A stretch of DNA of 64,000 nucleotides from Flavobacterium sp. SUN046 (GTDB taxonomy: Bacteria > Bacteroidota > Bacteroidia > Flavobacteriales > Flavobacteriaceae), in assembly GCF_028867965.1 (NCBI RefSeq), contig NZ_JAPQNT010000009.1:56683-120682 (forward strand). Direction: 5' to 3'. Numbering within the stretch: position 1 is the stretch's first letter; each line of letters opens with the position of its first letter. Both the position numbers and the translations under genes were made by a program. Below, in pieces: positions 17,380-21,364 of this stretch. The notes beneath the pieces are model-generated. The model worked only from the letters and a program-made list of their open reading frames with translations, had not been told where the DNA came from and ran no database searches.

Positions 17380-18156
17380 TTATTGACAACAAGCCGCTAA
17401 ATTGTAAAGTTGTATTACTTCACTTTGTGATATAACTCTGTTGTATATAATGACATCATCTAATAAACCATTGTATTCTTTTCCTAAAAATAAATCGCCA
17501 ATATTTAAAGTAGGTTGGCTTGGCGGAGAACAATTACCACCTCCGCCATAGGAAGGATTGTTTGGTGTTAGTATTCCATTTCTATAAAGTTTCAAGTCAT
17601 TTCCATAACAAGTTACTACTAAATGTTGCCAAACATCATTGTAGTCAGCAGGATTATACAAAATAGCAGGATTATACCAAAGCGAATACTCATTAATTCC
17701 AAATACTGGTTTTCTTCCGTCATATAATGAAACTGACCATTGGCCATAGGTGTCTGGACAATGTACTCCCATGTCTCTTCCAATTAAGCATTCAAAAGAC
17801 CATGTTCCTATTGGTTTATACCATACTGAAATTGAAAATGGTAGTGTTTGAAAATTATCTATGAAACTGGGATTTATATATTTTAAAAATTCATTGTTTG
17901 CTTTAATAAAATTAAATGCACAATTTGGGTTTCCTTCTCTATCTGCACCAGAACTTGCCGTAGTTGGATTTGTAAGGTTGTAATTATTACCAGAATAATC
18001 ATTTAAACTTCCTGAACTAAAAGGATAAAAAGCTATGATTCCATTTTGTAAATTACCTGAAAGACAACTTTGATTAGTTTGAATAACTTTATCGGTTTCG
18101 GTATTATTACAACTAGAAATTAAAATTAGAGCAAGTAAGCTTAAGATTTTTTTCAT
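17380..18156 (-). CDS. LamG-domain (concanavalin-like) lipoprotein, distal gene of the cassette-like island
   Basis: A 258-residue lipoprotein starting MKKILSLLALILISSC, with lipobox ISSC at about residue 16. An in-frame ATG 30 bp upstream (18186) is less likely because it would put ten polar residues ahead of the signal. Residues ~45-250 form a LamG/concanavalin A-like jelly roll: FYPFSSGSLNDYSGN, SISVWYKP, WQHLVVTC, LDDVIIYNRVIS. Such domains bind glycans or other ligands; no catalytic residues are recognised. It is the last - strand gene after an array of palindromic repeats and has no repeat copy of its own downstream. Confidence 0.8.
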   Translation of the reverse strand: MKKILSLLALILISSCNNTETDKVIQTNQSCLSGNLQNGIIAFYPFSSGSLNDYSGNNYNLTNPTTASSGADREGNPNCAFNFIKANNEFLKYINPSFIDNFQTLPFSISVWYKPIGTWSFECLIGRDMGVHCPDTYGQWSVSLYDGRKPVFGINEYSLWYNPAILYNPADYNDVWQHLVVTCYGNDLKLYRNGILTPNNPSYGGGGNCSPPSQPTLNIGDLFLGKEYNGLLDDVIIYNRVISQSEVIQLYNLAACCQ

Positions 18157-18182
18157 TTGATTTTTACTTTTTGTAATGTGCA

Positions 18183-18304
18183 TCATATTTTTTTATAATT
18201 GACAAATTTCGTAACTTAATATTTACTAATAAGATACTGTTTCTTGCGAAAGAAAAATGTGATTTTGCCACATTTTTAGTCTGTTCGTGTAATGGCTGTT
18301 AGTG
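18183..18304 (-). repeat. attC-like repeat, copy A (degenerate at its distal end)
   Basis: Read on the - strand it opens CACTAACAGCC, where TAA is the stop codon of the 141-residue gene at 18299-18724. It shares a core TTTCGCAAGAAA.AGTATCTTA with copies B and C. The distal half is A/T-rich and less palindromic than in the other copies. It fits the recombination-site position of an integron cassette. Confidence 0.55.
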
Positions 18305-18724
18305 GCAGGGTTTTTTGTTATTAAAAATTTTTCTTTCATATGCTTCCTTGTACAACTTCGGTAATAATTTATTTCTACGTCTAATTCTTTTTCTTTCAGC
18401 AGCTTTTATACTGACAAAATCATAAGTTCCAGTTTCTAGCAACACAACTTCTAGAACATTACAGTTTTCAGTGATTTTAATCGTTTCTGTATCACATCCA
18501 ATAAATCTAATTGTTATATATTTTATTTCTGAGGTGCATTTGAATTTGAAGTTTCCATTGTAATCAGTTGTATCTATTATTTTTGAACCAGACATGATTA
18601 ACACCATTGCAAGTTCTTTTAATTGGCTATCGACAACTTTTCCGGTTATAATATTTTCTTGTCCAAATGATTTTTGGACAATCAATAGTAGTAAAACGAT
18701 AATTGTTATTTTAAGTTTTTTCAT
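18299..18724 (-). CDS. Secreted protein with carboxypeptidase-regulatory-like (CarboxypepD_reg) domain
   Basis: A 141-residue protein starting MKKLKITII; a signal peptide ends near KSFGQ (about residue 22). The longer reading back to 18778 runs into the repeat upstream and is not favoured. Residues ~25-95 form a small beta-sandwich of the kind found at the N-terminus of TonB-dependent receptors and in CarboxypepD_reg proteins (ITGKVVDSQLKELAMVLIM, then YNGNFKFK). The basic tail (ERKRIRRRNKLLPKLYKEAYERK) is unusual. Its stop codon lies inside repeat copy A, and repeat copy B ends 7 bp before its start. It thus occupies a complete cassette-like unit. Function unknown. Confidence 0.7.
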   Translation of the reverse strand: MKKLKITIIVLLLLIVQKSFGQENIITGKVVDSQLKELAMVLIMSGSKIIDTTDYNGNFKFKCTSEIKYITIRFIGCDTETIKITENCNVLEVVLLETGTYDFVSIKAAERKRIRRRNKLLPKLYKEAYERKIFNNKKPCH

Positions 18725-18730
18725 AACCTT

Positions 18731-18862
18731 GCTTGTATCGTTGGCGGCCTCGCGGAGCGGCGAACTTCGTAACTGCATATTTCCACTAAGATACTATTTC
18801 TTGCGAAAGAAAAACGTGAATTTACCACATTTCTCGCAATTGCTAGATACGGCTGTTAGCGG
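18731..18862 (-). repeat. attC-like repeat, copy B
   Basis: On the - strand it runs from GCTAACAGCCGTATC to GATACAAGC, with complementary ends (GTATC/GATAC) and a GC-rich inner arm near 18744-18765. The core TTTCGCAAGAAATAGTATCTTAG is shared with copies A and C. It begins 9 bp after the stop of the alpha/beta-hydrolase gene. Confidence 0.65.
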
Positions 18863-18868
18863 CTGTTT

Positions 18869-19819
18869 TTATTTTTCAGTTGTTTTAATAAATTTAGATA
18901 TACTTTCTATCCATTCAACTTTATTCTTAATTAGGTAATTTTCGTGTCCGGTATTTTTGAAAACATTAAGTTCTTTTATTCCTTTCAAGTTTGTGAAAAT
19001 TTCGTTGGTTTCATTTCTGCTTACACTTTTATCTTTTTCACCATAAAGTAGCAAAGTTGGACAATTTATTTTTTTCGCATACTCTGATGGATTGTGACTA
19101 AATCCCCAAAAGCCATTTTGAATTCCGCCCCAAAATAATAGAATACCCGCCATTGGAAAAGTTGGAGCGTTCATTTTATTAAATCTTGCACAAACTGTTT
19201 GATACATTGTCCCAAATGGACATTCAATAATTATTCCTTTCGGTTTTATTTGATTATCATTTATACATTTCATTATTGCGACAGAACCCATTGATGTTCC
19301 AAATAAATAAATATTTTTTTCTTTGCATTTTATTAAATAATCAAATGCTGTTTTAACTTGTTCTGCTTCTTTAAATCCAATTGTTGTTTGATTTCCTTCG
19401 GAATTTCCACTACCCATAAAATCTACAAGTAAAGTATTAAAACCCAATTTTATAAATTCATCAGATTTGTCAATCATTGATGATTTTTCACCACCATAAC
19501 CGTGAAATAAAATAATTGTTCCTTTCGATTTTTCTTTTTTTATTGACCAACATTCAATTTCTTTATTGCTTTTTAATGTTACAACTTGATATTTGTAACT
19601 TGGTGTTTTTAAATTTTTTGGTTTAGGGTTATTTACTCCGAATAATATAGTTTTAATCTTTTGAGTTGTAGTTAATCTTTCGGGACTTTTTGTTTTTTCG
19701 GTATTATTTTCTGTGAAATGCGTAAATTTATAAGCATGAAGAAAAGCAATAACATTCAACAATAAAAATAATATTATTAGAACTTTAAAAAGTTTTTTTA
19801 TGTTCTTAATTTTCTTCAT
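18869..19819 (-). CDS. Membrane-anchored alpha/beta hydrolase
   Basis: A 316-residue serine hydrolase with an N-terminal hydrophobic anchor (residues ~10-30). The alpha/beta-hydrolase triad is complete: nucleophile S176 in GTSMGS, D263 in LYGEKDKS and H292 in NTGHENYL. The oxyanion region is LFHGYGGEKS (105-114). The mid-region resembles dienelactone-hydrolase/YqkD-like esterases. The substrate is unknown. It lies between repeat copies B and C, one gene per interval, all on the same strand, so it looks like a mobile cassette rather than part of an operon with related function. Confidence 0.82.
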   Translation of the reverse strand: MKKIKNIKKLFKVLIILFLLLNVIAFLHAYKFTHFTENNTEKTKSPERLTTTQKIKTILFGVNNPKPKNLKTPSYKYQVVTLKSNKEIECWSIKKEKSKGTIILFHGYGGEKSSMIDKSDEFIKLGFNTLLVDFMGSGNSEGNQTTIGFKEAEQVKTAFDYLIKCKEKNIYLFGTSMGSVAIMKCINDNQIKPKGIIIECPFGTMYQTVCARFNKMNAPTFPMAGILLFWGGIQNGFWGFSHNPSEYAKKINCPTLLLYGEKDKSVSRNETNEIFTNLKGIKELNVFKNTGHENYLIKNKVEWIESISKFIKTTEK

Positions 19820-19841
19820 TTATCATTTTTTCTTCATTTTT

Positions 19842-19973
19842 GTATATCTCCAGACGGCTTCAAGAAGTGGCGAACTTCTTAATCGAATATTTTTCCCTAA
19901 GATACTATTTCTTGTGAAAGAAAAGCATGAATTTTCCAAATTTTAGCCATTTCTTAAAACGGCTATTATGCGT
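19842..19973 (-). repeat. attC-like repeat, copy C
   Basis: Read on the - strand from CGCATAATAGCCGTTTTAAG to the stretch ending at 19842. The outer arms are nearly complementary: CGTTTTAAGAAATGGC pairs with the reverse complement of the distal arm CGGCTTCAAGAAGTGGC. It shares the core TTTCACAAGAAATAGTATCTTAG with B. It starts ~18 bp after the stop of the 173-residue gene. Confidence 0.65.
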
Positions 19974-19990
19974 TCGGGCTTTGAGTTTCT

Positions 19991-20512
19991 TTATCGCTCA
20001 ATTTTTATCAACTTTATACTGTCTACTGAGTTTCTGAACCCAAATAAATATTCATTTCTAATTTTATATTGTGTTGAGTCTGTTTTTAAAAAATATTCGT
20101 TTCCACTTTTACTAAATTTTCCTTCTAAAAACTCAGTTGTTGAACCCTGATTTGTACTTTCTGTCATGCTAAAAGTGTTGTCAAGTTTCGAGTGTACAAT
20201 TGCAAAAATTGTATCTTTTCTGTTGAATTTCCAACTTTCAAATTTTAGGTTTTTATGCCTTTCTATTCCGTTCAAAAATAAGAAGTACACTAGGATTGCT
20301 GAAACTAAAGAATTGATAACGAAAATTTTTGTGTATTCTCTTCTGAGGAAATATAAAACGAGAGCAATAGCTAGATTTATTATGATAGCAATTGGAACTA
20401 AAATTACTAAAGCAATTGAAACACTTGGGTCAGGGTCACTTTCTTTAACCCAAAACCAGATTATAATGAAGTCAATTATTGTGAGTAGAAATAGTTTTAT
20501 AAATAATTTCAC
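19991..20512 (-). CDS. Small membrane protein of unknown function (cassette-like gene)
   Basis: A 173-residue protein with three hydrophobic segments in its first ~80 residues (about 3-20, 30-55, 63-80), separated by a charged loop (RREYTK). A soluble C-terminal domain of ~90 residues follows, rich in beta-prone and polar stretches. No family was recognised. It lies between repeat copies C and D and begins 31 bp after copy D. Single-gene units of unknown function with membrane segments are common in integron cassettes, which is consistent with but does not prove that origin. Confidence 0.7.
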   Translation of the reverse strand: MKLFIKLFLLTIIDFIIIWFWVKESDPDPSVSIALVILVPIAIIINLAIALVLYFLRREYTKIFVINSLVSAILVYFLFLNGIERHKNLKFESWKFNRKDTIFAIVHSKLDNTFSMTESTNQGSTTEFLEGKFSKSGNEYFLKTDSTQYKIRNEYLFGFRNSVDSIKLIKIER

Positions 20513-20543
20513 TTGTCTTTTTTAGTAATTTTTCAAGTCTGAT

Positions 20544-20675
20544 GTACAACGTTTCCGAGCTTTGCGTCTGTTGCGAGCTTCGGAACCTGGTACTTTTCAC
20601 AATGATAAAATTTCTTGCTGAAGAGAAACGTCCGGCTTCCACAAATTTCGCAATAGCGCAAAACGTGTGTTATGC
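20544..20675 (-). repeat. attC-like repeat, copy D
   Basis: On the - strand it opens GCATAACACACGTTTTGCGC and closes GCAAAGCTCGGAAACGTTGT. TTGCG-N3-TTGCGA in one arm faces TTGCG-N4-TTGCGA in the complement of the other, a long imperfect palindrome. The TAA in GCATAAC is the stop codon of the 179-residue gene, as is usual for integron cassettes. Confidence 0.7.
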
Positions 20676-21209
20676 GGTCGTTATTTTATTCTCCTTGTGA
20701 ATGTCATAATATTTGCATACTTGATACGTCTCAAGTTCACCATTTTTATTATTTTCTTCAAATAGGAAGGTAACTCCTCCTTCTGTGTCGATAAAAGTAT
20801 GCTCACAATCTTCTAGTCCAAATAGATGTGCTCCAGCTGTCTCAAAATTTTTCAGGGGTCCTTTTATTGTATATTTTTTATAGGTTATATTTCTTTGGGC
20901 GATTTCACTTTCTATCTTTATTAAACTTCTCTTTTTTGAAATCCACGGAATGTTTACCCCTTTAAAGTCTTTTTTTGAGAAAAGAATTTCAGGTCTGTAA
21001 CTTATCCCGTTAATTTTTTCATTATAAATATGAAACTCAATAAATCCAATTTTAACTATGCCATAAATGAGTCCATTAACTTCTGTCTCTTTTACAGACC
21101 AAAAGTCGACACCAAATATATTAATTAACTTTTCCATTGAAGTGCCAGGCGCCAGTCCTTCAATAAAACCTTTTTTAAGAAAATGGTCAAAATCGTTTGT
21201 CGAAGTCAT
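20670..21209 (-). CDS. Protein of unknown function (first gene of the cassette-like island)
   Basis: A 179-residue soluble protein, no signal peptide or membrane segment. It starts MTSTNDFDHFLKKGFIEGLAPGTS and has alternating beta strands (IYGIVKIGFIEFHIYN, GGVTFLFEE). No motif or family was recognised; the LAPGTS..KLINIFG opening recalls small immunity- or SMI1-like proteins only vaguely. Its stop codon is embedded in repeat copy D. Upstream (21210-21364) is plain A/T-rich DNA with no fifth repeat copy seen. Confidence 0.65.
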   Translation of the reverse strand: MTSTNDFDHFLKKGFIEGLAPGTSMEKLINIFGVDFWSVKETEVNGLIYGIVKIGFIEFHIYNEKINGISYRPEILFSKKDFKGVNIPWISKKRSLIKIESEIAQRNITYKKYTIKGPLKNFETAGAHLFGLEDCEHTFIDTEGGVTFLFEENNKNGELETYQVCKYYDIHKENKITTA

Positions 21210-21364
21210 TGTTATTCTCTTTTTTTATAATGTCACACAACTCTTTAATAAACGAATATATAAAATTTAAGCAATTAAATTATAAAAACAATAAATCATA
21301 TTTAAAATTCAACAATGGAGTTTATAAATTTCCTTAATTATGATTTAGTATAGTTGCAACAAAA

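Follow-up and report, generated by a model that had tools for sequence, protein, structure and literature searches.

Four attC-like repeats and the genes between them, lying on a 64,000-nucleotide stretch of Flavobacterium sp. SUN046 DNA (the window), appear to be a worn fragment of an integron-type system whose integrase is encoded elsewhere in the same genome. That integrase, a tyrosine recombinase on contig C14, has no counterpart of the additional domain of integron integrases (IntI). We put at roughly 0.85 the probability that the cluster is such a fragment and that the C14 enzyme recombines attC sites. The window feature is modest in itself, and by sequence comparison it is a decayed cluster of attC sites lacking integrase (CALIN). 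The best reading of the wider comparison is a chromosomal integron type, widespread in the class Bacteroidia, which would be run by a domain-less integrase. Judged by the cassette features found in intact arrays, the predicted system works like an integron and is a new variant, not a member of the IntI integrons.

The window is part of contig C36 (a C36 coordinate minus 56682 gives the window coordinate) of a draft genome of 3.37 Mb in 36 contigs, designated G000. The original prediction placed in it an array of integron-type repeats with no integrase in view. That remains true of the window but not of the genome, in which C14 carries a candidate tyrosine recombinase, followed by an attI-like site and a cassette. 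Missing from that reading were the domain-less integrase of the genome and the same arrangement in many related genomes.

The attC-like cluster of the window

The features of the cluster are as follows.

17380..18156, - strand: LamG-domain protein gene, last of the cluster (Pfam Laminin_G_3, E 6.4e-16; start codon picked by eye inside the open reading frame (ORF))
18172..18307, - strand: attC-like site R1 (covariance model, 89 bits; 3' arm degraded; in the training set)
18299..18721, - strand: cassette gene, CarboxypepD_reg-like protein (Pfam PF13715, E 2.9e-7, 30.9 bits, slightly under the cut-off of 32.2; its TAA lies inside the next site)
18732..18864, - strand: attC-like site R2 (covariance model, 121 bits; in the training set)
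18869..19819, - strand: cassette gene, alpha/beta hydrolase (Pfam Hydrolase_4, E 3.2e-18)
19841..19974, - strand: attC-like site R3 (covariance model, 117.7 bits; in the training set)
19991..20512, - strand: cassette gene c4, 173 aa, membrane protein by eye (ORF)
20543..20678, - strand: attC-like site R4 (covariance model R1, 98.3 bits, E 6.2e-18; in the training set)
20670..21209, - strand: cassette gene c5, 179 aa (ORF)
21239..21256, - strand: putative attI-like point of insertion, bounding the cluster upstream (TTCG, 21256-21253, followed by ...A|GTT, whose GTT occupies 21241-21239)

The four repeats are real. They align over their full length with a mean column identity of 70%, and the covariance model places all four on the - strand. 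When an 80-nt copy was scanned over both strands of the window, the other three copies were the next best places (74, 64 and 62.5% identity), and the best place outside the cluster reached 54%. The claim that two copies take a stop codon into their opening box was borne out as well, the stop of the CarboxypepD_reg gene lying inside CACTAAC and that of c5 inside GCATAAC. As had been described, the genes between the repeats are all on one strand, one per interval, and encode LamG, CarboxypepD_reg or alpha/beta hydrolase domains or have no family match; c4 and c5 matched nothing in Pfam or NCBIfam at E 0.01, nor in PADLOC at 0.001. No attC was found after the LamG-domain gene. With four sites within 2.5 kb, gaps below 4 kb and no integrase in the window, the designation as a CALIN of a divergent Bacteroidetes type was right for the cluster itself.

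An integrase without the additional domain, and its arrays

A genome search for intI gave a divided answer. The integron-integrase profile found no IntI above its cut-off in the source genome; below it, the best match was the 357-aa tyrosine recombinase of C14 (TIGR02249, 196 bits, cut-off 265), behind which an attI-like site is found. The alignment of this enzyme to the IntI structure 2a3v falls into two pieces flanking an extra stretch, a stretch of 2a3v without counterpart. The motifs KGxKDR and HxLRH are separated by 58-59 residues in 46 of 52 rows of Bacteroidia integrases (some rows hold the same protein twice) and in two further ones; the alignment reveals no insertion in L127 or L131, and L109 and L132 lie outside the measured set. 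The same interval in 30 canonical IntI of the phylum is 100 residues in 27, 99 in one and 108 in one (by another anchor), with one outside the measured set. The predicted C14 protein thus lacks the additional domain of IntI and so falls outside the usual definition of an IntI. In a tree of 58 rows the 14 canonical IntI form one clade (SH-aLRT, an approximate likelihood-ratio test, 100) with the Bacteroidia integrases outside it, in a tree that leaves the deep order unresolved and has several outgroups on long branches. Four recombinases from Patescibacteria metagenome-assembled genomes (MAGs; L267, L272, L276, L285) group with canonical IntI in this tree, and no cassette chain in order was seen with them.

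On C14 (locus L050), a GTT start, GTTAGGTGCT, occurs 146 bp after the end of the integrase gene, in an attI-like position, and AGCACCTAAC, 2.3 kb further on, opens an attC. The first cassette behind the integrase (L050 13247-15528) encodes a HAD protein together with ShosT-like and ShosA-like (DprA) proteins (PADLOC E 2.2e-10 and 2.5e-44), and from these matches it looks like a candidate anti-phage system borne as one cassette. At the opposite end of the contig (L050 1-347) are short tandem repeats of the CCAAAGTCATTCATTCGATACTTGTTCC type.

Covariance model R1 detects close relatives only (15 of 199 family genomes, the source genome included); distant arrays were therefore located via the integrase. 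Relatives of the C14 integrase occur in 123 of the 199 family genomes (E <= 1e-40), and an array-bearing query found relatives in 191 of the 395 class genomes (E <= 1e-45), though arrays need not accompany all of them. Twenty-one integrase loci were read with 20 kb each. Eight contain 6 to 21 repeat clusters, three have one or two doubtful ones and ten have none, two of the last (L126, L134) having one self-matched cassette pair each. When the eight arrays were extended to 60-80 kb, 346 sites were in the orientation of the integrase and 6 in the opposite one. The numbers of sites per extended array were 88 in G068 (the largest, in 80 kb), 75 in G113, 48 in G014, 44 in G078, 42 in G157, 17 in G118, 16 in G040 and 16 in G127. 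The integrase of G127, a genome of the same genus, has in-frame stops (L136, C27, 4240-5205); its 16 sites remain on the integrase strand and none of its three testable cassettes has matching ends, as in a decaying system.

An attI-like start of the first cassette, matched by its own R'', lying +70 to +177 after the integrase and not preceded by CGTT, was present in 4 of 23 loci (L125, L126, L130 and L050) and was not found by the same criterion in the remaining loci of the 23; a further attI-like start occurs at +123 in L219. Across 80 loci from named genomes or MAGs, 55 self-matched pairs lay downstream of the integrase in cassette order and 12 reversed, and upstream there were 0 and 6. At least two downstream pairs were found in 13 of the 80, and none of the loci had as many upstream. 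Array examples include F. enshiense, Winogradskyella ursingii, Seonamhaeicola aphaedonensis, Algibacter onchidii, Arundinibacter roseus and Rufibacter sp. In the scan of named genomes, F. enshiense (64% identity) and F. luminosum (62%) had the integrases nearest to that of C14, in keeping with the genus Flavobacterium.

Matched cassette ends, hairpins and position 11

In many cassettes, the start consists of GTT followed by 6-7 variable bases, the complement of those preceding AAC at the cassette's own 3' end. The start matched its own R'' at 6 or more of 9 positions in 202 of 288 testable cassettes, compared with 8.1% of 16,486 mismatched pairs; by genome, the proportion ranged from 34/41 (G014) to 0/3 (G127). 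Perfect end matches, GTT included, were 9 or 10 nt long in 191 of the 288 and never longer. Segments of more than 300 bp and at least 75% identity that are shared between genera start at R' or inside attC in all 13 rows, and in 3 of the 13 they also end there; nine of the rows are one 1.36-kb element, an IS3-type transposon by eye, so that independent cases are few. Because ends match cassette by cassette and shared segments begin at R' or attC, a gene with one repeat is taken to be the moving unit. It could be supposed that the repeats are dispersed intergenic elements, such as miniature inverted-repeat transposable elements or repetitive extragenic palindromes, which happen to follow genes, and that the cassettes are not units of movement. 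The sites of the source genome are indeed scattered and some are single, but such elements account neither for cassette-specific matching of 5' and 3' ends nor for cross-genus segments starting at R' or in attC, and this explanation is extremely improbable.

Circular sites rebuilt from cassettes with matching ends form long single-strand hairpins, 53 of 54 having z < -2 (up to 12 first sites from each of five genomes, 40 shuffles each; selecting for matched ends favours pairing). Folding, on which the original prediction depended, is thus found in sites of related arrays with intact ends, whereas the window's own four fold weakly. Xer-type enzymes act on double-stranded DNA (dsDNA). An integrase that acts on double-stranded attC in the manner of a Xer or phage recombinase, with no folding of single strands, would fit an enzyme for which Xer-type models score best and from which a domain essential in IntI is absent. 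The variable R''/R' complement within each cassette and the long hairpins of rebuilt sites (chosen for matching ends) speak against such an enzyme, to which this complementarity would be of no obvious need, and we regard dsDNA recombination as unlikely.

A further feature separates these arrays from canonical ones. Beyond a 9-nt seed, position 11 matched in 22 of 273 Bacteroidia pairs, as opposed to 40 of 72 canonical pairs, and perfect matches past position 10 occurred in 3 of the 273. The named loci show the same trend, with a match at position 11 in 4 of 61. The R' base at this position is A in 261 of the 273, so that Bacteroidia arrays have an almost invariant A-C mismatch at this place in the R arm. 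Agreement resumes at positions 12 and 13 (220/273 and 236/273), which may in part reflect a conserved motif rather than pairing.

Self-matched ends as such are not peculiar to these arrays. In a control of 13 canonical loci from the same phylum they were found too, with 33 pairs in order and 3 reversed on the divergent side and 10 and 1 on the co-directional side. The cassettes might accordingly be debris of canonical integrons, laid down by an ordinary IntI since lost, with the C14 recombinase an unrelated Xer-like enzyme. Other parts of the phylum often have a canonical IntI (above the cut-off in 105 of 395 genomes), and the C14 enzyme scores best with XerA-type models. On the other side, the source genome has no IntI above the cut-off, and one (G233) of 107 matching phylum genomes belongs to the window's class (the class share of the 395 is not given). 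Same-strand arrays lie behind the domain-less gene in eight genomes and in named loci, and position 11 is matched far less often than in canonical pairs. We judge it very unlikely that the cassettes are such debris, and retain the domain-less integrase as the probable recombinase of these sites.

attC sites and insertion points in the source genome

The short pattern AAGAAATAGTATCTTA, with 8 exact and 9 one-mismatch matches, was the starting point for collecting sites, while at up to three mismatches it showed no clear enrichment (109/124 versus 99/111 for the reversed control). A model of 26 copies over the genome returned 42 sites at E <= 0.1, 26 of them by construction. The further copies for which a genome search had been suggested are present, single or in small scattered clusters on contigs C1, C2, C6, C7, C12, C20, C22, C33 and C36.

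Had the copies been unrelated, they would not align as they do, and the arms of the 26 sites covary. The mean pairing of sites with their own arm was reached by 2 of 20,000 permutations, although the own arm was the best partner in 6 of 26 sites only. Changes on both sides of the arms filled 35 cells versus 18.5 in shuffles, and the number of further pair types was not above that in shuffles (164/500); the arms were set by hand from one clean copy, and both counts therefore lean to that structure. Consensus RNA folding of the 26 sites, aligned with MAFFT, gave no structure. Hybrid attC sites also occur in this genome, for example at L031:5878-6013 and L039:6344-6479, where the left arm is of one type and the right arm of another, as expected of homologous recombination between neighbouring sites.

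A matching start within 4.5 kb upstream, with at most one mismatch in ten, was found for 19 of the 34 testable sites among the 42 (a raw count, with no shuffled background). Ten hand-picked starts not preceded by attC were compared together with the C14 attI, and 8 of these 11 have CG at -13/-12 and 10 of 11 have A at -1. By this shared context, the dispersed clusters begin at predicted attI-like chromosomal sites. The start at 21239..21256 of the window has the spacing of most other cluster starts in the genome (CG at -13/-12, A at -1), which is no more than suggestive of an attI-like start for the window cluster, since TTCG-N10-AGTT is found at three places in the window and the start at 21241 is matched by none of the four sites.

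Vertical conservation of the gene order in all relatives, which would speak against mobility, was not seen. Comparison of the junction returned 29 same-genus loci, and matches in 60 other genomes too. In 14 of the 29 the junction is closed, bcp being followed by the 495-aa gene within 280 bp; the distance is 0.9-1.1 kb in four, and in 11 the 495-aa gene was not seen within 1.5 kb. One of those 11, G605 (L316), has its own attC-like site right at the bcp stop. Because of the closed junctions and the separate site of G605, the window cluster is best read as a probable insertion beside bcp, at a place used more than once.

Insertion sequences within attC arms

Nine junctions were read in the source genome, and at each of them one and the same insertion sequence (IS) interrupts the L'' arm between GTTC and ATGCTT (5/5 right ends and 4/4 left ends). 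Such junctions stand at the ends of contigs C6, C12, C14, C20, C22, C33 and C35, and no full copy was seen in this genome. A relative in another genome of the genus, 88% identical at its end, encodes an IS110-family transposase; by this relative, the element is assigned to the IS110 family. IS1111 elements with attC as their target have been described (Tetu and Holmes 2008; Post and Hall 2009; both as cited in PMC11187229), and IS110-type elements use guide RNAs, according to passages of PMC11187229. By analogy, the attC arm may be the coded target of a guide-RNA IS. The element resembles the IS1111-attC elements in its DEDD transposase family (IS110/IS1111, by the relative) and in having one fixed insertion point in attC. 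It differs from them in sitting in the L'' arm, and it may be of either the IS1111 or the IS110 branch.

Discussion

The sequences themselves carry the boundaries of the units, the attI-like position, the linkage of array and integrase in relatives, the missing domain and a cluster at a junction that is closed in many relatives. From these we infer that the C14 enzyme is the catalyst, that it would act on single-stranded hairpins, and that the position-11 mismatch would help to mark the strand. In the proposed mechanism, the C14 recombinase would recombine folded attC sites at G^TT; circular cassettes, each consisting of GTT, the gene and R'', would insert either at the attI that directly follows the integrase or at attI-like places in the chromosome; and members of an array would be excised and shuffled. 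More tentatively, and with somewhat less than even odds, the Bacteroidia lineage never had the additional domain, in which case recombination of folded attC predates the domain or arose again from a Xer-like enzyme, and the strand is told by the fixed position-11 A-C mismatch of the R arm rather than by extrahelical bases of the L arm.

Several observations weigh against an integron-type system run by this integrase. The best NCBIfam model of the C14 enzyme is recomb_XerA_Arch (NF040815; 214.1 bits, cut-off 220), two Xer-type chains stand above IntI 2a3v among its PDB sequence matches, and the source genome has other tyrosine recombinases. The C14 array itself breaks off halfway through an attC, where an IS and the end of the contig lie. 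No array of at least five clusters was found in 13 of the 21 integrase loci. Nine loci, L116-L124 (in G184, G085, G011, G006, G132, G044, G075, G036 and G050), hold the sister clade of the C14 enzyme or enzymes like it, with an HGLRH motif and about 50% identity, and no attC-like array was seen in the roughly 17 kb read for them. L121 and L123 have one or two clusters of 340-bp repeats of doubtful nature; perhaps these nine integrases have a lost or a different function. As to cassettes, 86 of the 288 have no self-match, and some shared segments below 75% identity, among the matches listed, do not start at R'. In the window, the single-strand folds of the four sites on the - strand are weak (z -1.17, 0.60, -2.09 and -1.55), and none of the four has a matching cassette start upstream (0/4). 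It is because none keeps a matching start that the cluster is taken to be an old fragment.

Integrons are among the best-known natural gene collectors. If the domain-less integrase works as proposed, surveys overlook a large gene-exchange system. It would also offer a natural test of the role of the additional domain and of the extrahelical bases, and would open a pool of unannotated cassettes.

Bacteroidota are listed among the phyla with integrons in passages of two reviews (PMC8618304, PMC9668308), and an early survey places intI in the Bacteroidetes/Chlorobi group in the part that bears on this point (PMC2426708). For Bacteroidetes, the relevant passages of the IntegronFinder 2.0 report name only In0 from earlier work, followed by a single complete integron from Salinibacter ruber (PMC9024848). 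The 105 of 395 phylum genomes with canonical IntI found here far exceed that single complete integron, as given in the same passages. Surveys, as described in parts of PMC2426708 and PMC9668308, pick IntI by the additional domain. Smyshlyaev et al. (PMC8138268) state, in the portion concerned, that an insertion is not fully conserved in their integron-like subgroup, yet essential for integron function. Our literature searches on integrons in such bacteria, whose coverage mostly excluded subscription papers and preprints, returned no report of arrays of this kind.

Among known systems, the arrays are most readily compared with sedentary chromosomal integrons, such as the Vibrio superintegron. 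Both have a tyrosine integrase with an adjacent attI-like site and a junction at GTT, and same-strand cassettes that each end in a palindromic attC with self-complementary R'' and R'. Dispersed genomic insertions are likewise comparable to attG, as presented in passages of PMC12901181. Three differences set the Bacteroidia arrays apart from canonical IntI integrons. The integrase has no additional domain; the array lies downstream of the integrase and is co-oriented with it, whereas in 13 canonical loci the divergent side holds most of the array (33 of 43 ten-base pairs); and the R arm has a near-fixed mismatch at position 11.

Canonical attC boxes read RYYYAAC and GTTRRRY. The window cluster resembles a CALIN in its number of sites, their spacing and the want of an integrase within the window; it differs in that an integrase candidate exists elsewhere in the same genome and that its sites follow the canonical boxes only partly. 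The C14 enzyme, in turn, is like the XerA-type recombinases in its best NCBIfam model, its best PDB matches and its want of an additional domain. Unlike them, it is extended at the N-terminus by about 80 residues, and a cassette array directly follows the gene in many genomes.

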